Virus record (IMG/VR): IMGVR_UViG_3300013233_000417
Span: 1 to 37,454 of that record
Source: a virus
Strand: one strand, 5' to 3'
Length of the DNA stretch: 37,454 nucleotides
Each line of letters starts with the position of its first letter. The first letter of the stretch is position 1. The notes under the pieces are model-generated. The model made no database searches, was not told where the DNA came from, and saw only the letters and a list, made by a program, of their open reading frames with translations. The position numbers and the translations under genes were made by a program. Positions 9,927 through 36,936 of this stretch are shown piece after piece.

Positions 9927-10553
9927 ATGAATAACATTGTTTATGAAAGACAAAGAATAAAATCGGATAGTTATATTCCATACGTTTCACAAAAAATTAT
10001 TAAATCGCTAGGATTGGATCCTTCTATTTGGAGTATCCATGTAACCACACCTGAGCAAGATATGAAAGAAGCGGCGGATTTAATACTTACTGACGGAAAA
10101 GTAGAATATATGATAGCCCTTAGAAATCGTCAACAAAAATATGTAGAGATGGGTTATTACTATGACTTTACTATCAGACATGAATATAAAGCTGGTCACA
10201 AAACTGAATATGAAAAAATATTAATTGATGGTTATGCCGATATGATGTTCTATGGTTTCCAGAGTGGCGAAAAAATAAACAGATGGTTGTTTATGTTGGT
10301 AGATGAATTTAGATGCCAACACAAAATAGTAAATGGTGTAGCTGTCCCACAAGATCATATAAAATATTCACTGAAGGAAAATACTGACGGCAGAAATGAT
10401 TTCTACGCATATGATATAAATTCATTCAAAAATCACGACAAACTAATAATAGCACATAGTGATGGTTATTTTAAAGACGTAACTACAAAAACTTATGGTG
10501 GTATAACCACTCATACTTTAAAATTGAAATCGGAGAGAATAGATGGGTATTGA
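9927..10553 (+). CDS. Conserved phage protein, possible PD-(D/E)XK-like fold, 208 aa
   Basis: The core reads MKEAADLILTDGKVEYMIALRNRQ ... YDFTIRHEYKAGHKTEYEKILIDGYADMMFYGF. This layout (acidic EAAD, then IALR, FTIR, TE..KI.DG..D) recalls a widespread phage family of unknown function with a possible nuclease-like core; that link is from memory and unproven. It heads a three-gene cluster with the intein-bearing methyltransferase, overlapping the next gene by 11 bases. Confidence 0.5.
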   Translation: MNNIVYERQRIKSDSYIPYVSQKIIKSLGLDPSIWSIHVTTPEQDMKEAADLILTDGKVEYMIALRNRQQKYVEMGYYYDFTIRHEYKAGHKTEYEKILIDGYADMMFYGFQSGEKINRWLFMLVDEFRCQHKIVNGVAVPQDHIKYSLKENTDGRNDFYAYDINSFKNHDKLIIAHSDGYFKDVTTKTYGGITTHTLKLKSERIDGY

Positions 10554-10890
10554 TTTTTCGCACGGCGAAGCACATTGGTCTTATAGCGGCTTTATGCGAT
10601 TTAGGGCGAGGCTTATTGAAACGTTGGGATTGGGAAATCTTAACGAAATGTATGGCGATGGAAGTTTTTATGATAAGCTCAAAAACATTCCAATATTTCC
10701 ATTGATAAATCATTCTGATTGTGATGGTGAATTGACTGTTGAAGAAATGAAACAAATAATTCCACAATTAGATTTAATTATAACGTTATGGGAATCCAAT
10801 GGTGGTGATTATGATTCTGAAAGAGCACGGGATTTCATCAACGGCATGAAATATGCCATAGAAGAAGATGTTCCATTGGAATTCATGTAA
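10543..10890 (+). CDS. Conserved phage protein, 115 aa
   Basis: MGIDFSHGEAHWSYSGFMRF ... INHSDCDGELTVEEM ... NGMKYAIEEDVPLEFM. The GIDFSHG, WSYSGF and NHSDCDGE patches look like those of a small phage family of unknown function that I recall from other phages. The stop and the next ATG share a base (TAATG), so translation is probably coupled to the methyltransferase. Confidence 0.6.
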   Translation: MGIDFSHGEAHWSYSGFMRFRARLIETLGLGNLNEMYGDGSFYDKLKNIPIFPLINHSDCDGELTVEEMKQIIPQLDLIITLWESNGGDYDSERARDFINGMKYAIEEDVPLEFM

Positions 10891-12458
10891 TGCAGATAAA
10901 ACGTATATGGGCTATGCCCAATAAAAATACTTTTGAAGTATCTCCTATTGGTGACATTGTAAGAAAATACACGCACGGCAAATCCATAGATCCATTCGCA
11001 AATAAAAATAAGTTTGCCATGATTACAAATGATTTAGATACTGAATATTCCACAGATTACCATATGGACGCCTTAAATTTCTTAAAGATGTTCGATGATG
11101 AAGATATTGATACTGTTTTGTATGATCCCCCATATTGTTACGACAAAGAAACTGAAGTACTGACGGAAGATGGTTGGAAGTTTTTTGATAACCTCAATGA
11201 GAATGATGTTGTTGCCACTCTAAACACCACCACAAATGAACTCGAATATCAAGCGATAAATGAAATTATCAAAAAAAGATATTCAGGTAAAATGATTGCG
11301 TTTGACTCGCAGAGTGTAAACTTATTTGTGACGCCCAATCATAAAATGTGGACTAAACATTCATATTATTCAAATTATAATTTTGAAGACGCCATTGATG
11401 TTGTAGATAAAAATTCATGGTTCAAAAAAGCGTGCGACTATATTGGATATGAAAAAGAATATTTTACACTGCCTGCTGTTGAATTATTAAAAACTAATAA
11501 ACATGGCGAAAAATATAAACCAACAAAACAAATAAAAATGGATACGTGGCTAAGTTTTCTTGGGCTATATATATCAGAGGGGTGTTGTAAAAACTACGAT
11601 TATCAAATATCATTGACTCAGAAAAAGATTAAAAATTTAAAAACATCTGAAATGGTATTAGATGCGCTTGGGTACAAATATTATAGGGATGGTAATGATT
11701 ATAAAATACACGACAAACAACTATGGACATATTTAAAAAAATATGGAAAATCTCGTGAAAAATACATAGATCCTGATATTAAAAAATTGTCTAAGCGACA
11801 GTTGGAAATATTGTTGAAATATCTAATGATTGGCGATGGAACTAATATCAGATACGAAAAGTTAAACAAACAAGCTGGGAAAATGTATCACTATACGACA
11901 AATTCTTATTATACTGGTTCTATAAGACTGATGAGTGATGTATCTGAGATTTGCATTAAGTGTGGATATGGTATAACAGTAACTCCAAAGAAAAAGAAAG
12001 GATACGAAGACATATATAATATACATATGTTGGGTGCCAAAGATTTTAAAGTTAAAAAGGACAACATTAAGATCATTGACGATTTTGATGATTTTGTATA
12101 TTGCGTTTCTGTGCCGAATAAAACGGTATTGGTTAAGCGAAAGGGAAGAGTGGTTTGGTCTGGAAATTCACCACGACAGGTATCTGAAGTTTACACAAGA
12201 CTTGGCATGACGGTCAATATGGAGACTACTCAAGCTTCATTTTGGTCTAAAATGAAGCTTGAGATTGGCAGAATAACAAAAATCAACGGTATTGTCGTTG
12301 GCTGCGGGTGGAACAGTGGTGGAATAGGCAAAAAATACGGTTTTGAACTGATAGAAGTACTTTTAGTTCCCCACGGGGGTCAACACAACGACACCATTGT
12401 AACAGTAGAAAGAAAGGTCAGAAAGCTGTATAAAAGTGATGAAACTCTTATAAGCTAA
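10890..12458 (+). CDS. Phage DNA methyltransferase interrupted by an intein, 522 aa
   Basis: Precursor of a 178-residue methyltransferase (exteins 1-82 and 427-522). The N-extein has a SAM-site-like segment (SIDPFANKNK) and the catalytic motif VLYDPPY (79-82), which the intein interrupts. Splicing gives DPPYSPRQVSEVY. The C-extein contains VVGCGWNSGGIG and ends about 20 residues later. The likely activity is N6-adenine methylation, as for phage DPPY enzymes, but the target is unknown. Its end overlaps the convergent gene at 12448. A 15-bp perfect inverted repeat sits in the C-extein (12229-12263). Confidence 0.8.
   Translation: MQIKRIWAMPNKNTFEVSPIGDIVRKYTHGKSIDPFANKNKFAMITNDLDTEYSTDYHMDALNFLKMFDDEDIDTVLYDPPYCYDKETEVLTEDGWKFFDNLNENDVVATLNTTTNELEYQAINEIIKKRYSGKMIAFDSQSVNLFVTPNHKMWTKHSYYSNYNFEDAIDVVDKNSWFKKACDYIGYEKEYFTLPAVELLKTNKHGEKYKPTKQIKMDTWLSFLGLYISEGCCKNYDYQISLTQKKIKNLKTSEMVLDALGYKYYRDGNDYKIHDKQLWTYLKKYGKSREKYIDPDIKKLSKRQLEILLKYLMIGDGTNIRYEKLNKQAGKMYHYTTNSYYTGSIRLMSDVSEICIKCGYGITVTPKKKKGYEDIYNIHMLGAKDFKVKKDNIKIIDDFDDFVYCVSVPNKTVLVKRKGRVVWSGNSPRQVSEVYTRLGMTVNMETTQASFWSKMKLEIGRITKINGIVVGCGWNSGGIGKKYGFELIEVLLVPHGGQHNDTIVTVERKVRKLYKSDETLIS
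11136..12167 (+). mobile_element. Intein with LAGLIDADG domain, 344 aa, in the methyltransferase DPPY site
   Basis: The intein runs from Cys83 (CYDKETEVLTEDGWKFF, block A) to Asn426 (VVWSGN), with Ser+1. Block B is FVTPNHKMW (T-x-x-H). LAGLIDADG-like motifs are LGLYISEG and LLKYLMIGDGT. The penultimate residue is Gly instead of the usual His. The N-terminal Cys and Ser+1 fit the standard (class 1) splicing route. Both endonuclease motifs keep an acidic residue (E, D), so homing may be active. The site splits the catalytic motif, a typical choice that prevents clean loss. Confidence 0.9.
12229..12263. repeat. 15-bp perfect inverted repeat inside a coding region
   Basis: The left arm 12229-12243 (CTCAAGCTTCATTTT) and right arm 12249-12263 are exact reverse complements with a 5-base loop (GGTCT). 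It lies in the C-extein of the methyltransferase (protein TTQASFWSKMKLE). There is no U-run, so it is not a classical terminator. Confidence 0.9.
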
Positions 12459-12735
12459 CGTCATCAAAATCCACCATTAGCCGATATTGTGGCAAATGAA
12501 CCGTTCTGTCAAATTTATCAGTAGCAGTCTGGAAAGTTTTTTCTATTTTTCCTTTAGATATCATACTTTTTAAGATGTGCCCAAATGTTACTACGTTGGG
12601 TGTAGTTGATTTAGAAGCTACCATGTGAAGAAAGGATTCGGAAACCCACATGCCGCAACGATTTGACAATGCATTGGTGATATCTTCTTCAATTTTTTCC
12701 ATCAATTTGCTTTCAAAGTTTACTATTTCAATCAT
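12448..12735 (-). CDS. Hypothetical protein, 95 aa
   Basis: MIEIVNFESKLMEKIEEDI ... MWVSESFLHMVASKS ... KSMISKGKIEKTFQ ends in MVDFDDVSL. Unrecognised. ATG 12735 lies 5 bases after the upstream stop; the longer in-frame start at 12783 would overlap that gene. It converges on the methyltransferase with an 11-base overlap. Confidence 0.5.
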   Translation of the reverse strand: MIEIVNFESKLMEKIEEDITNALSNRCGMWVSESFLHMVASKSTTPNVVTFGHILKSMISKGKIEKTFQTATDKFDRTVHLPQYRLMVDFDDVSL

Positions 12736-23553: not shown

Positions 23554-24909
23554 ATGAAAAATAAAATAAATCAAGTTAAAAGCACACAATTTAACACATT
23601 TTCTACAAAAAAATTAATAGTTCAATTTATAGAAAACTGTATTTCTCGTAGGAATTCACAATATGTTGCTATTTTGAAAAGAAAAAATTTGACATTATAC
23701 GAATTCATTTTAAAAGAATGTGCTGCCAATTCACCACTAGAATCAATATATCAATATATTCATAACAAATCTATCCCTTTATGTAAACATTGCACCAAAA
23801 ATCATGTAAAATTTATCAATTATAAAAAGGGATATGCTCAGTTTTGTTGTAAATCTTGTAGCGATAAATCTGATATTACAAAAGAAAAAAGAAGTAAAAC
23901 TAATTTGGTAAGGTATGGAAATTGCTGCGCTGTGCAATCAGAACATGGTAGCAAGAAAAGAAAAGAAACAATGTTAGGAAAATATGGTGTTGAACATTTT
24001 TCTAAAACTAAAGAATTTAAAAATAAATTTACAGCAACAATGAAAAAAAGATACGGGGTAGAATATGCTATGCAATCTGATGAATTGAAAGAAAAATATT
24101 GTGATTCATTAGAGCGTAACCATGGAGTTAGGCACCCATCAAAATCTAAGGAAATATACAAAAATAGAAATAAAGCCATGCAAGAAAAATATGGTGTTGA
24201 ATATGCAATGCAATCTGATGAATTGAAAGAACGTCATAGATTATCATTACAATCTAATTATGGGGTAGATATACCATTACAATCTAAAAAAATTCAAGAT
24301 AAATTCAAAAATACTATGCGCGAGCGTTATGGCGCAGAATATACAGCTAATGTAGATTGGTTATTTACACAAATGAAGCAAACAAATCTTGAACGTTATG
24401 GCGTTGAATATTTAATGCAATCAGACGAATTTAAAGAAAAAACGAAGCAAACAAATCTTGAACGTTATGGCGTTGAATATCCAATGCAATCAGACGAATT
24501 TAAAGAAAAAACGAAGCAAACAAATCTTGAACGTTATGGCGTTGAATATCCAATACAAAATGAAGATATTAAAAATAAGATTCGTTTAAAAATGGAAAAG
24601 GAAGGTAAGTGGATTCCAAATGAATTACTATCGGATGCACAGATGTATTATAAGCAGGTAATAAAATATACATACAAGCAACCATTGCATTTGCTGGAAA
24701 ATATTGATAAAAGAGGTCGGGCGGGAAAAGATGATGCATATCATATAGACCATAAGGTTTCTATAAAATATGGTTTTGAAAATTCCATACCACCTTATAT
24801 TATTGGAAATATTAATAATTTGGAAATGCTGCCATGGTATGATAACATCTATAAAAGTTCTAAGTGCTCTATCGATCCAGAAGAACTTATAATATTAATA
24901 CAAAAATAA
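23554..24909 (+). CDS. Homing endonuclease with ten YGVE-Q repeats, 451 aa
   Basis: Free-standing homing endonuclease. The N-terminal region has a Cys zinc site (LCKHCTKNHVKF ... FCCKSCSDKS, about 75-110). Then come ten repeats of about 23 residues around ERYGVEYPMQSDEFKEK, a repeat I associate with phage homing nucleases carrying DUF723-like modules and likely DNA-contacting. The C-terminus (YHIDHKVSIKYGFE, then NINNLEMLPWYDNIYKSSK) fits an HNH or endonuclease-VII-like H-DH...N...N core. It is the only + gene of its block and starts 57 bases from the divergent polymerase-half gene. No frameshift seen. It ends just before the convergent tail gene. Confidence 0.8.
   Translation: MKNKINQVKSTQFNTFSTKKLIVQFIENCISRRNSQYVAILKRKNLTLYEFILKECAANSPLESIYQYIHNKSIPLCKHCTKNHVKFINYKKGYAQFCCKSCSDKSDITKEKRSKTNLVRYGNCCAVQSEHGSKKRKETMLGKYGVEHFSKTKEFKNKFTATMKKRYGVEYAMQSDELKEKYCDSLERNHGVRHPSKSKEIYKNRNKAMQEKYGVEYAMQSDELKERHRLSLQSNYGVDIPLQSKKIQDKFKNTMRERYGAEYTANVDWLFTQMKQTNLERYGVEYLMQSDEFKEKTKQTNLERYGVEYPMQSDEFKEKTKQTNLERYGVEYPIQNEDIKNKIRLKMEKEGKWIPNELLSDAQMYYKQVIKYTYKQPLHLLENIDKRGRAGKDDAYHIDHKVSIKYGFENSIPPYIIGNINNLEMLPWYDNIYKSSKCSIDPEELIILIQK
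24376..24555 (+). repeat. 69-base tandem repeat in the homing endonuclease gene
   Basis: Units at 24376-24444 and 24445-24513 are nearly identical, and a partial third begins at 24514, each coding KQTNLERYGVEY.MQSDEFKEKT. Older units upstream have diverged, so this part was amplified recently. Confidence 0.9.
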
Positions 24910-30097: not shown

Positions 30098-30784
30098 TTA
30101 TATGTTGAGGGCTTTGACGCACTCCAATGCCAGTTTGTGATCTGATTTGTGGGACTTAAACCTTGTCTTCCAATAATCTGGATTTATCAGGCTTTCCAAT
30201 ATAACACGCTCTTCTTTTGTGGTAGTTTCTAAGAAAAATGCGATAAACTTTTTACTATTTAATAATATCCACGGAGATACCCGACGCTGTTGGAGTAATT
30301 GAATAATGTCATTTGGTACTACTACATCAAAAACATCAGATACATCAACCTCCGCCATATCTACAATATCATATAACGTCTTAACAGTAATTTCTATTAA
30401 ACGCTCAGTGGGAAGTTTTCTGGTGATATATTCAAGATATTTACCATAGACGACATCTTGTGTCCAAAGATTTGGAGTTATATTCTTCTCGACCATCAGT
30501 TCTATGTAGCTTTTAGTGTCTGGTATTTGGACTTTAAATATAAAATTGACGAATTTTAAAAACGAATTGAAGTAATGGGAATTCTTAAAAGCTTCGGGAT
30601 TTGTTATTACCGCATGGTGTTTTTTCTTCATCCAAGATTTGTAAAAAAGATGCGCTGCTTGTCCTTCCAAAGATTTAAAGTCTTCATCGCGCTGCATTTC
30701 TTTACAATAATGTTTTAAGAACCGCGATTCGTGTTTAAATTGCTGACGGCAATACTTACATTGATATTTAAGATCTTCACTCAC
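30098..30784 (-). CDS. C2H2-finger protein, 228 aa
   Basis: A single C2H2 finger at residues 9-26 (CKYCRQQFKHESRFLKHYC) is followed by an all-helical body (AAHLFYKSWMKKKHHAVI ... TERLIEITVKTLYDIVDMAE ... KTRFKSHKSDHKLALECVKAL). The function is unknown. It is joined by a 4-base overlap to the clamp-loader small subunit, so a replication or transcription role is plausible. Confidence 0.6.
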   Translation of the reverse strand: MSEDLKYQCKYCRQQFKHESRFLKHYCKEMQRDEDFKSLEGQAAHLFYKSWMKKKHHAVITNPEAFKNSHYFNSFLKFVNFIFKVQIPDTKSYIELMVEKNITPNLWTQDVVYGKYLEYITRKLPTERLIEITVKTLYDIVDMAEVDVSDVFDVVVPNDIIQLLQQRRVSPWILLNSKKFIAFFLETTTKEERVILESLINPDYWKTRFKSHKSDHKLALECVKALNI

Positions 30785-31278
30785 GCTCGTTTCTTAAGTT
30801 CTCTTTTCAACGCAGCAAGTTCGTCTTTTTGGTATCCAAGGTCTTCAGCCATTTCTACTATAGTGGCATTTGTTAATAATGGAAGCGATTCAACAGCTTC
30901 TTTAGTACTGTAACCGAATACTGTCTTGATAACTGCGGTTGTTTTTGTGAACCCAGCTCCTTTCTTTTGATTTGATTTATTAAAATTCCATCTACAGTCC
31001 TTGCCCGTGCACGATGCCGACATTAAATCATATAACAATTTTTTGTGTTTGCCTAATGGAAAAACGAGTGGATTGACAACAGCGTTAATGAAATATATCT
31101 GCTTGGCAGAATTAATACTACCATCATTACAACCAGTTAGCCATCGCATTATGAGATATGGGCTTATTTCCTTTCGTTGATCTTCTGTAAGGGAATCAAA
31201 GTAGGCAGAATTCTTGGTTGCTATATTCCTAAGCAATGGAAACAATTCTACTTTGTATTCTTTCTTTTTAGCTGCCAT
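30781..31278 (-). CDS. Clamp-loader small subunit, gp62-like, 165 aa
   Basis: PYLIMRWLTGCNDGSINSAK ... YFINAVVNPLVFPLGKHKKL resembles the small clamp-loader subunit (T4 gp62 type) of marine T4-like phages, as I remember it. In T4, gp44(4):gp62(1) opens the gp45 clamp with ATP. Position next to the gp44-like gene, separated by one small gene, supports it. The body is helical with basic ends. Divergent, so only moderately sure. Confidence 0.55.
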   Translation of the reverse strand: MAAKKKEYKVELFPLLRNIATKNSAYFDSLTEDQRKEISPYLIMRWLTGCNDGSINSAKQIYFINAVVNPLVFPLGKHKKLLYDLMSASCTGKDCRWNFNKSNQKKGAGFTKTTAVIKTVFGYSTKEAVESLPLLTNATIVEMAEDLGYQKDELAALKRELKKRA

Positions 31279-31616: not shown

Positions 31617-33656
31617 TTAAATTTGTGACAATGATATTAACATTGCGGCTGCATTAATTTCTGGGTCTGCACATATACCATTCTTGTATAGAAATTCACC
31701 AATAACTAATATTGCAGAATAATACTTGTCTTGTTGTGAAAATTTTGGTGATTTGTTAATATTTTCATACAAAAATCGGTATATGCTTTCCCAATCTTCT
31801 GCTGGTACATTTGCACATAACAACGTACGCGCTTCTTGCCATTTATCAGAGCTTATTAAATCCAATAATTGAAACTTATAATCGCCTGCTTCAATTTCTG
31901 TAGCATGGTTCAATAAACTTCCTGATGGTGAATTCTGCTGAAGCAGATTGACGATTTTACGTATGTCTGGATACCCTACAGCAACATACTTATCCAACCT
32001 ATCAAGATCAAATTCAACCTTTTCGGATATTAGTATCTTTGCGGCAAATTCTGCAATGCCATTTTTATCAGCTGCTTTAAATCTGTAATGTTGTGAACGA
32101 GATTTTATTGCTGGTATAATCTTATTGTCGTAGTTGCATGTCAATATAAATCTGGCGCTAGAAGCTTCATTTTCCATATATTTTCTGAGGACTGCTTGAG
32201 CATTTAACGATAGATAATCTGCTTCTTCCAACAAGACCACTTTAAAGTCTCCCATGGGAAATGTGCTAATGAAATGTTTAATTTTATCGCGCATATCATC
32301 TACGGAGTTTTCATCACTGGCATTTATGATACGAACGTCAGCAGCATCTGTTACGATTTCGTTTATGAGGATTTGTGCTATGGTTGTATTATGCGTTACT
32401 ATGTAATCATTTGTAATATATAGATGATTTGGATCATCTATAAGTATGCACTGTGCATCTTCCACCCCCACACATTCTATGGATTTTATGCGCCTGCGTA
32501 ATGTAATATTTCCCTCACTGTGATTTTCACCAAAGGTTTTAGTTCCCAATTCGCTTTTTCTATTCAATTTAAAAAATTGTGCAGTTCCATCATTATGATT
32601 AATATGTAAGGTAAATGCTATTTTACCATCTAGTTGTTTACCATTATACATGTATGTTGGGATACGCGAAGTGAGGGTGCAGGTACATCCCAACGACCAC
32701 AATATTTCTTGTAGGTTTTTTGCTAATTGGTGACTGGTTGTAGTATAAGAAACATTGCTGCCAGCCTTACCTATTGTGCCGTCAGTATCCATTAATCCTT
32801 GCACCAATTCCCAACGCTGTGCCACAGAACCTATCATATATTCTTTTGGAATAAATTTTTCATGGGATCTGGCTCCATACAAATTATTTTCCCTGAAGTA
32901 TTTGGTGTAGTGATTTTCACTAACACCAATCTTACCACCAAATATTTTTCTTTTTTCATTAACTATATAATGTTCTATTTTAGTATTTGATATCGCTTTT
33001 ATCACATATCCATCTAAAAGTCTAGTTTGACATTCCTGCACGATATCTTTATCAGCAGAGGTCAATTTGGGTGTAGGTGAGCACATAGATCCATCACCCA
33101 ACAAAACTCCCATTATGTACGGATCTACATCATATTCTTCACTAGGATATTCGACGGGTTTAATTAGTGGTATAGATATGTTAAATTTTCCAGAAGATCG
33201 TAAAGATTGTTTATCCATAAAGGAAATTATGGTTCTAGTATCTACAATGTGTTTTTTAGCAACTCTATCATTATAATTATCTATGAAATAACATTCCCAA
33301 AGATGATCCAAGCAGCTATCTGTAGAAGATCCATCGTGAAACGTAATAGTATATATTTCCTTCTTTCCTTGTGGAAATATATCGACTATAGTGGCGGTGT
33401 TATTATTGGGCGTACATATAATATCACCTATATGTAAATCGCCCATAAGTTCCCACCCATTAGGCGTCAAAACTTTACTATGTAGTGGTTGTGCTTTTCC
33501 GGAGCCTTGTACACCAGACAAAAGTAAGTGTGGTATGGTTTTATCGCCTACCATTTGGTAGAATGCTGTCTTTTGGGATTCATCGTGGAATACGTAGTCA
33601 TCAAGTTTTTGTGGACGATACTTCTCACACCATAAATTGTGTTTTGGGTTTATCAT
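31617..33656 (-). CDS. Clamp-loader ATPase gp44-like with intein, 679 aa
   Basis: The host part (1-54 and 424-679; 310 residues, T4 gp44 is 319) is an AAA+ sliding-clamp loader. It begins LWCEKYRPQKLDDYVFHD, the usual clamp-loader start. The P-loop GVQGSGK|TT is interrupted by the intein. After splicing come Walker B VVLLEEADYLSLNAQAVLRKYME, sensor-1 region ARFILTCNYDNKI and the arginine-finger region IKSRSQHYRF (SRS in place of SRC). It is driven by the promoter at 33684-33712 inside the previous gene's end. The protein cannot be an ATPase until the intein splices. Confidence 0.92.
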   Translation of the reverse strand: MINPKHNLWCEKYRPQKLDDYVFHDESQKTAFYQMVGDKTIPHLLLSGVQGSGKAQPLHSKVLTPNGWELMGDLHIGDIICTPNNNTATIVDIFPQGKKEIYTITFHDGSSTDSCLDHLWECYFIDNYNDRVAKKHIVDTRTIISFMDKQSLRSSGKFNISIPLIKPVEYPSEEYDVDPYIMGVLLGDGSMCSPTPKLTSADKDIVQECQTRLLDGYVIKAISNTKIEHYIVNEKRKIFGGKIGVSENHYTKYFRENNLYGARSHEKFIPKEYMIGSVAQRWELVQGLMDTDGTIGKAGSNVSYTTTSHQLAKNLQEILWSLGCTCTLTSRIPTYMYNGKQLDGKIAFTLHINHNDGTAQFFKLNRKSELGTKTFGENHSEGNITLRRRIKSIECVGVEDAQCILIDDPNHLYITNDYIVTHNTTIAQILINEIVTDAADVRIINASDENSVDDMRDKIKHFISTFPMGDFKVVLLEEADYLSLNAQAVLRKYMENEASSARFILTCNYDNKIIPAIKSRSQHYRFKAADKNGIAEFAAKILISEKVEFDLDRLDKYVAVGYPDIRKIVNLLQQNSPSGSLLNHATEIEAGDYKFQLLDLISSDKWQEARTLLCANVPAEDWESIYRFLYENINKSPKFSQQDKYYSAILVIGEFLYKNGICADPEINAAAMLISLSQI
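32388..33494 (-). mobile_element. Class 3-type intein in the clamp-loader P-loop, 369 aa
   Basis: Runs from Ala55 (AQPLHSKVLTPNGW) to Asn423 (YIVTHN), with Thr+1. With Ala at position 1 it cannot use the usual N-terminal Cys/Ser route. The residues of the class 3 triad are visible: Trp120 (block B, CLDHLWECY), Cys403 (block F, AQCILIDDPNHLY) and Thr421 before HN (block G). The LAGLIDADG-type homing domain has IMGVLLGDGS and LVQGLMDTDGT. Class 3 inteins are known from phages and often interrupt P-loops. It may still be mobile, since both acidic motif residues remain. Confidence 0.9.
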
Positions 33657-35418: not shown

Positions 35419-36021
35419 TTATTCGGTTCGTAGAAATTCTTCTATATTTAGTCCATATTTGAAACTATCAATATCATGTACTTCCAAAAGGTACAAAATA
35501 TAGGAAGAAACGCTGCTACCGCGCCCTACTCCCCAAACTACATTATTTTCTATCAATGTATTTATGATATAAATTAATGTTGCTAAAACAGGCATTAAAC
35601 CAAGCCTTTTATATAACTCCAGTTCATCCAAACATCTATCTGTTCGTTCCACGAATTCGGAGTCTGACAAACCATCTGTAGATTTAATTAATTTGGCTAT
35701 GACATGCGATTTAATATCAATATCTTTATATTCTTGTGGTATGTTCCATTCATAATTAAACGGTCTGATGTTTTCTTTTATTGTAAGTTTTTCATCTCTA
35801 CTAACATTTTGATTGTATTGTTTTATTCTTGGTGTAAATTCTTCCACAAATAAACCTTTTGTTGAAATGCCATTTCTAATAAAATTCAACAATGTGTCTT
35901 CTGATACCGTAGAATCGCCATCATACCAAAGAACTCTATCTTCTAATTGTGTTTTACCCAAATGAAGATTCATAGCTTCCGTCAGTGGTGTCAATATTTG
36001 GTGTCTTGGATCTGCCTCCAT
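35419..36021 (-). CDS. DnaE-like polymerase core, N-terminal half, 200 aa
   Basis: Matches the region of DNA polymerase III alpha just before the catalytic D-x-D. FVERTDRCLDELELYKRLGL (123-142) corresponds to the ERLEYELDVI..MGF helix. NVVWGVGRGSSVSSYILYLL (160-179) corresponds to GPGRGSAAGSLVAYLLG. VHDIDSFKYGLNIEEFLRTE (181-200) corresponds to I-DPL-YDLLFERFLNPE. It ends exactly where MDIDLDF of the gene at 22909-23496 begins. No PHP domain is seen. The frame can start at ATG 36021 or 35973, both overlapping the upstream gene. Function alone is unclear; an inactive clamp- or template-binding remnant is an alternative. Confidence 0.7.
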   Translation of the reverse strand: MEADPRHQILTPLTEAMNLHLGKTQLEDRVLWYDGDSTVSEDTLLNFIRNGISTKGLFVEEFTPRIKQYNQNVSRDEKLTIKENIRPFNYEWNIPQEYKDIDIKSHVIAKLIKSTDGLSDSEFVERTDRCLDELELYKRLGLMPVLATLIYIINTLIENNVVWGVGRGSSVSSYILYLLEVHDIDSFKYGLNIEEFLRTE

Positions 36022-36397
36022 CGGTAGTTGGCATTTGTGGTGGTGCTTCTACTGCCGATGGTACATACGCAGTTCCATCGTGCGTCTTTACTACAGGACC
36101 TTCTGGTATACTACTTGGTGCTGGAGGCGCAGCGAATGCAGGATTTACTGGAGGTTGAACTGGTGCATCAGGTCGAGACAATAATGGATTCGTTGGTGGT
36201 TGCACAACTTCCTTTACAATCTCTGGAACAGGTTCAATTATACCATTTATCCTACTGCGAATTAATTCCCACTGGTCGTGGTTTGGTGCCCAATTTTCTG
36301 GTTGTAATTCTTCAACACCTTCTAACCATGCTTTGAATTCTGCGAGCGTCAATTTAGATCTACGCTTTCCCTTTTTCTTTATTGGTGCTGCCATCAT
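35954..36397 (-). CDS. F-x-x-W-L-x-G domain with Pro-rich tail, 147 aa
   Basis: After a basic start (PIKKKGKRRSK), the domain AEFKAWLEGVEELQPENW ... HDQWELIRSRINGIIEPV matches those at 18228-18590 and 36394-36936. The tail is Pro/Ala-rich (PPTNPLLSRPDAPVQPPVNP) and likely disordered. It overlaps the upstream gene by 4 bases. Function unknown; tail may tether the domain. Confidence 0.55.
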   Translation of the reverse strand: MMAAPIKKKGKRRSKLTLAEFKAWLEGVEELQPENWAPNHDQWELIRSRINGIIEPVPEIVKEVVQPPTNPLLSRPDAPVQPPVNPAFAAPPAPSSIPEGPVVKTHDGTAYVPSAVEAPPQMPTTDGGRSKTPNIDTTDGSYESSFG

Positions 36398-36936
36398 TCT
36401 TTACCTTTTATACCTGTAAGTTTATACATTTCCTGTCGAACAGTTTCAATATCTTCAAAAAAACCTTTCACGGTTTCGCTTTCTTCGTACGGCATATATG
36501 GATTCACAGAATCGACACCAACTTTATCGCACGCATTTTTAAATACCTCAGAAGATGGTGCTATTGACGATGTTTGTAGTGGTGTATCACTAGAAATACT
36601 AATAGTGTTTTGTGTAGACTCATAACCATAATGCGAGCAAGTAACTTCCCAAGGATTTGGTACTAGGTCGCCCACATATGTAGGTGGTATGATGGAGTCT
36701 GTTATTTTTGGTGATTTATACCATTTATCTTCAGGGGGCGTATATGTCGGTACATATGTTGGTTGTTGTGTTATAATTTCTTCTTTATCTGGCACGACCT
36801 TATCCATCATCTTATATATGGCACGCCAATCTTCAGGACCGGGGCAATTTTTACCAGTACCGCGCAGTAAGCCGTTCATCCATGCTTTAAATTCATCAAA
36901 TGTTATTTCTTCTTTCAATTCTACACTACTATTCAT
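36394..36936 (-). CDS. F-x-x-W-x-x-G domain protein, 180 aa
   Basis: DEFKAWMNGLLRGTGKNCPG followed by DWRAIYKMMDKVVP is the third copy of this domain in the window. Next are a Pro/Tyr-rich linker (PTYVPTYTPPEDKWYKSP), a Ser-rich middle and a helical end (DIETVRQEMYKLTG). Function unknown; overlaps both neighbours by 4 bases. Confidence 0.55.
   Translation of the reverse strand: MNSSVELKEEITFDEFKAWMNGLLRGTGKNCPGPEDWRAIYKMMDKVVPDKEEIITQQPTYVPTYTPPEDKWYKSPKITDSIIPPTYVGDLVPNPWEVTCSHYGYESTQNTISISSDTPLQTSSIAPSSEVFKNACDKVGVDSVNPYMPYEESETVKGFFEDIETVRQEMYKLTGIKGKE

Follow-up and report, generated by a model that had tools for sequence, protein, structure and literature searches.

Class 3 inteins and related systems

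Class 3 inteins are defined by the absence of a nucleophile at residue 1 together with Trp at position B:12, Cys at F:4 and Thr at G:5 (PMC7891396, PMC5050341). This WCT motif sets class 3 apart from class 2, and a Cys-His-Thr triad has been described in class 3 by crystal work (PMC7664689). In a survey of 1,701 class 3 inteins, 82.5% were found with LAGLIDADG (PMC7891396). Class 3 inteins have also been reported from mycobacteriophages, and insertion between Lys and Thr of the P-loop is known as a 'classic' intein site (PMC5050341).

The window analysed here is a metagenomic IMG/VR record of 37,454 bases in which a clamp-loader gene is interrupted by an intein. The mycobacterial DnaB inteins Msm DnaBi1 (PDB 6bs8) and Mch DnaB-1 (6rix/6riy) resemble it in their WCT set, block-B His, P-loop site and HINT fold (Z 18.6-19.6, rmsd 1.5-2.2), whereas their identity to it is about 24%, their host is DnaB and the crystallised ones are mini-inteins. 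Phage class 3 inteins with LAGLIDADG (Proteus phage 10, Aeromonas phage AerS_266, Pseudomonas phage EL and others) are 34-39% identical over the full length and have the same Lys/Thr P-loop junction. Their hosts are terminases, SF2/SNF2 helicases, primase-helicases and the like, whereas the host in the window is a clamp loader. The P-loop inteins of the archaeal RFC small subunit (Thermococcus, Methanothermococcus; L185, L188, L190, L196, L203, L206) share the insertion point of the window intein, with junctions GVGK/CLTGD...LHN/TT in a clamp-loader ATPase homologous to that of the window, but they are class 1 (Cys1) and form a lineage of their own in the splicing-domain phylogeny.

The interrupted clamp-loader gene

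The locus is read as a mobile class 3 intein bearing LAGLIDADG in the Walker A motif of a clamp-loader ATPase subunit from a jumbo phage of the XacN1/PA5oct kind, with a probability of about 0.93. The features on which this reading is built are listed in Table 1.

Table 1. Features of the clamp-loader locus in the window; residue numbers are those of the intein unless stated otherwise
Feature	Coordinates	Strand	Basis
Precursor, gp44/RFC-type sliding clamp loader subunit with intein, 679 aa	31617..33656	-	open reading frame; phrog_168, NCBIfam
N-extein, 54 aa, C-terminal end is Walker A ...GSGK	33495..33656	-	alignment with uninterrupted loaders
Class 3 intein, 369 aa (precursor residues 55-423, in frame)	32388..33494	-	
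Ala1, non-nucleophilic first intein residue	33492..33494	-	sequence
His64, block B catalytic His	33303..33305	-	sequence, alignment (129/129 homologues)
Trp66, W of WCT triplet, block B:12	33297..33299	-	sequence, alignment
LAGLIDADG motif 1, IMGVLLGDG, residues 127-135, catalytic Asp134	33090..33116	-	alignment, D in 121/129
LAGLIDADG motif 2, VQGLMDTDG, residues 231-239, catalytic Asp238	32778..32804	-	Pfam LAGLIDADG_3; D238 in 127/129
Cys349, C of WCT, block F:4, predicted branch-point nucleophile	32448..32450	-	sequence, alignment (129/129)
Thr367, T of WCT, block G:5	32394..32396	-	sequence, alignment (129/129)
His368-Asn369, penultimate His and terminal Asn for cyclisation	32388..32393	-	sequence, alignment
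C-extein, 256 aa and stop, starts TTIAQIL; +1 Thr at 32385-32387	31617..32387	-	alignment with uninterrupted loaders
gp62-like second clamp-loader gene, downstream of precursor	30781..31278	-	phrog_225 clamp loader, E 4.6e-5; XacN1 has same gene order

The host protein matches the PHROG clamp-loader family phrog_168 (E 6.7e-62) and the NCBIfam model PRK00440.1 for the RFC small subunit. With this AAA+ clamp-loader family match, its replisome neighbours and a gp62-like gene beside it, it is a loader of the T4 gp44/RFC small-subunit type, and the gp44-like host proposed in an earlier note on this DNA is supported. The clamp loader minus the intein is 310 aa long and GSGK is then followed directly by TT. 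Aligned with uninterrupted loaders, the C-extein is intact and conserved. Among named relatives of the loader, PA5oct and its kin are nearest (44.6% identity), followed by Phosso, XacN1 and Atu_ph07. The gene order around the loader is that of ORF238-ORF245 in Xanthomonas phage XacN1, whose own loader, ORF241 ('sliding clamp loader subunit', 933 nt), has no intein. The window is likely a piece of a large-phage genome of the XacN1 type.

The junctions read LLLSGVQGSGK/AQPLHSKV...DYIVTHN/TTIAQIL, so that Walker A is split as GSGK/TT. The earlier note had placed an intein without a residue-1 nucleophile at 32388-33494, between GSGK and TT of the P-loop, and had named Trp120, Cys403 and Thr421 as its key residues. 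The limits are exact (369 in-frame codons of the 679-aa ORF), the first residue is Ala, and the three named residues are present, their numbers being those of the precursor and corresponding to W66, C349 and T367 of the intein. The intein is far beyond chance: a homologue of 369 aa occupies this site in two other viral contigs (66-67% identity) and in a third (57%). The Pfam Intein_splicing model (PF14890), run on the whole record, gave no match to the intein; this model may simply miss class 3. Annotation relying on PF14890 would overlook class 3 inteins such as that of the window.

Assignment to class 3

Intein alignments were used to scan viral contigs, and 129 distinct homologues were collected. 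Every one of them has Cys, Thr and the block-B His; Trp is present in all but one (128/129), which has X at that position. Two of the search patterns included Trp, and the residue was recounted in the 92 homologues matching neither pattern; the conservation of Trp is not just a search artefact, because 91 of these 92 have the WCT triplet. The first residue is most commonly Ala (89/129), so Ala1 of the window intein is not odd within its family, while Cys is found in 6 and Ser in 3. The homologues with Cys at residue 1 despite WCT (e.g. L137, L139, L167, L371, L376, L387) indicate, as far as an alignment can, that a complete WCT set is compatible with a nucleophile at residue 1. The junction is GK/T in 97 homologues and GK/S in 11 (108 of 129 together), across many unrelated ATPases, and by its own junctions the clamp-loader insertion conforms to this Lys/Thr P-loop habit.

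The window intein has Ala where class 1 has Cys or Ser, and it has the WCT residues (W66, C349, T367) whose absence marks class 2; in the Cys-His-Thr triad, the block-B residue is His64. A tree of splicing domains places 39 class 3 inteins, that of the window among them, and 12 archaeal RFC class 1 inteins on opposite sides of a branch with support of 100/98. The earlier note had counted a phylogenetic position among class 1 inteins as evidence against its reading, but the window intein falls in class 3: a forced grouping with the class 1 P-loop inteins of RFC is rejected (AU p=0.0013), on a tree whose class 1 reference consists of archaeal RFC inteins only and for which the program warned of long branches meeting.

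An AlphaFold2 model of the intein, built from a 64-sequence alignment, has pLDDT 94.2 and pTM 0.92. Compared with the PDB by VIA-align, it matches the class 3 Msm DnaBi1 (6bs8_C; Z 19.6, rmsd 1.5, 123 residues), Mch DnaB-1 (6rix_B and 6riy_B; Z 18.6) and, over intein and endonuclease together, PI-SceI (Z 27.5, 327 residues). The class 1 intein gp41-1 also matches (Z 18.2), as the HINT fold is common to the classes and does not separate them. The class 3 DnaB inteins of Msm and Mch are also among the sequence matches of the intein in the PDB. The class 3-type assignment of the earlier note is thus borne out by sequence, tree and structure comparison, and the same evidence supports the internal Cys as the predicted branch point.

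Endonuclease and mobility

The homing domain of LAGLIDADG type that the earlier note had recognised is matched by Pfam LAGLIDADG_3 (E 3.4e-8, precursor 283-335), and both of its motifs have their catalytic Asp (D134, D238) in a PI-SceI-like fold. From tested relatives we infer that the endonuclease is active. In a mixed infection, the LAGLIDADG domain would cut loader alleles that are intein-free and the intein would be copied in.

Three more metagenomic viral contigs, L009, L010 and L095 (IMG/VR 3300009537_000364, 3300009537_000559 and 3300001270_000028), have the same intein at this site of the clamp-loader gene, with 67, 66 and 57% identity to the window intein, respectively, and with WCT intact. 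Uninterrupted clamp loaders were found in 22 sampled genes (L001-L007 and others) and in phage XacN1. The four clamp-loader inteins form one clade (99/99), whereas a single clade for the exteins of the carriers is rejected (AU p 2.4e-5). The extein nearest to that of the window is from L001, which is intein-free (74%); on the extein tree L010 stands beside the intein-free L016 and L095 is distant. Between L095 and the window, the intein is more similar (57% identity) than the extein (about 50%). This discordance between the intein and extein trees suggests homing, and horizontal homing fits it better than repeated loss. Co-conversion tracts were not seen beside the insertion site, where flank identity is no higher than in the rest of the gene. 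For the pair L009 and L010, the dN/dS ratio is 0.13 in the intein and 0.06 in the extein, purifying selection being measured directly only for this pair and in comparisons with L095. Transfer of the intein cannot be dated because synonymous sites have reached saturation in the comparisons of the window with L009 and L010.

Predicted splicing and its effect on the loader

Tested class 3 inteins serve as the model for the predicted splicing mechanism. With His64 and Thr367 activating it and Trp66 packing the core, Cys349 would attack the Lys54-Ala1 bond to give a branched thioester. The N-extein would then be transferred to the +1 Thr side chain, cyclisation of Asn369 would free the intein, and an O-N shift would leave the GSGKTT loop. 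By analogy with its tested relatives, the window intein is expected to splice and to do so through Cys349. In the class 3 intein AceL NrdHF, the mutant T144A, at the position of Thr367, still splices about tenfold more slowly (PMC7891396).

The earlier note had further claimed that splicing gates replication. The part of this claim that stands is a precursor without an intact P-loop, in which K54 is held apart from T55/T56; clamp loading would presumably be impossible for such a precursor, judging from tested relatives. Conditional control goes beyond the evidence. It would require splicing that responds to stress or redox state and thereby times phage replication, which we consider improbable. 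The P-loop is indeed split until splicing, and oxidation inhibits the related class 3 Msm DnaBi1 in vivo through Cys48 (PMC6195587). The window intein also has Cys61, three residues ahead of His64, which is found in 4/4 clamp-loader inteins and in 80/129 homologues; it occupies the position of the block-B Asp of DnaBi1 and is the sole hint of a thiol near the triad. However, a redox switch of the DnaBi1 type was considered and set aside, as the redox-trap Cys48 aligns to Ile47 in the window intein. In addition, the clamp-loader intein is patchy among close relatives, and for this reason a parasite is expected rather than a needed regulator. A broader scheme is equally doubtful: the P-loop of the phage loader would be repeatedly invaded (by class 3 in one phage lineage, and by class 1 in archaea as well as in at least one other viral contig), and the loader, while unspliced, would hold back replisome assembly post-translationally, perhaps with redox tuning via the block-B Cys61 beside the triad.

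The combination of Ala1 with a nucleophile at +1 (Thr) would also fit a class 2 route, in which the N-terminal bond is attacked directly by the +1 residue, with Cys349 playing no part. Thr at +1 would be a weak direct attacker, which counts against this route. WCT, the mark of class 3 (PMC7664689), is moreover complete in the window intein and invariant across the 129 homologues except for the one X, and the class 3 Bvi IcmO intein is incapable of class 2 splicing even with Cys+1 (PMC5222942). Splicing of the class 2 kind is therefore very unlikely here, and the internal Cys349 is retained as the predicted branch point. A decayed intein that no longer splices and leaves a dead clamp loader on this contig would be just as surprising, for although the contig is metagenomic, the ORF is intact, the catalytic residues and both endonuclease Asp are all present, the model has high confidence along its whole length, and the C-extein is conserved and undamaged.

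The clamp-loader P-loop as an insertion site

Among the 50,697 records of INPHARED, none covered at least 80% of the clamp-loader precursor. The literature on inteins in clamp loaders (gp44, replication factor C, DnaX) yielded no class 3 phage case, which is weak evidence of absence, the survey's host list lying outside this comparison. The intein itself looks ordinary for class 3 with LAGLIDADG, and only the invaded gene looks little recorded. With it, a core ATPase of the replisome, the T4-type clamp loader, joins the class 3 intein hosts seen in this analysis; a single intein alters no concept. A clean comparison is provided by homologous loaders with the same GK/TT site, where phages have class 3 inteins and archaea have class 1. 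Because class 1 archaeal inteins interrupt the same point of a homologous protein, the shared P-loop site is convergent, and the presence of both classes at one GK/TT site supports site-driven invasion of Walker A, not shared descent.

Clamp loaders with HN/TT junctions were also sought with the pattern CATAAYACNACN{46,76}ATHAAYGC, which gave mostly chance matches; only L238 was loader-like. An intein of class 1, apparently split, interrupts a phage-like clamp loader at 9964-12503 (+) of this contig (IMGVR_UViG_3300024974_000020), at the same P-loop GK/TT. The N-half stops 28-29 aa into the intein (CLDPNEEI...EKST, then a stop codon), and the C-half begins with the rest of the intein, followed by HHN/TTIAKAL. 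Between the halves lie ORFs 10419-11096 and 11078-11365, homing endonuclease-like by eye. The arrangement looks like that of a fractured gene with a short IntN.

Other genes in the window

The stretch 35419-36021 (-) encodes a protein of 200 aa resembling DNA polymerase III alpha (phrog_11127, E 3.9e-39), which ends just past a GRGS motif and before the expected catalytic Asp motif. Similar short ORFs are found near the clamp loader in XacN1 (ORF245, 'DNA polymerase III alpha subunit') and in PA5oct-like phages. A 451-aa ORF at 23554-24909 (+) matches the PHROG homing endonuclease families phrog_3339 (E 3.2e-35) and phrog_12131 (E 3.5e-34) and is apparently a second, free-standing mobile element. 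The adjacent proteins encoded at 35954-36397 and 36394-36936 (-) are alike at their start (LAEFKAWLEG and FDEFKAWMNG) and possibly represent a tandem duplication.
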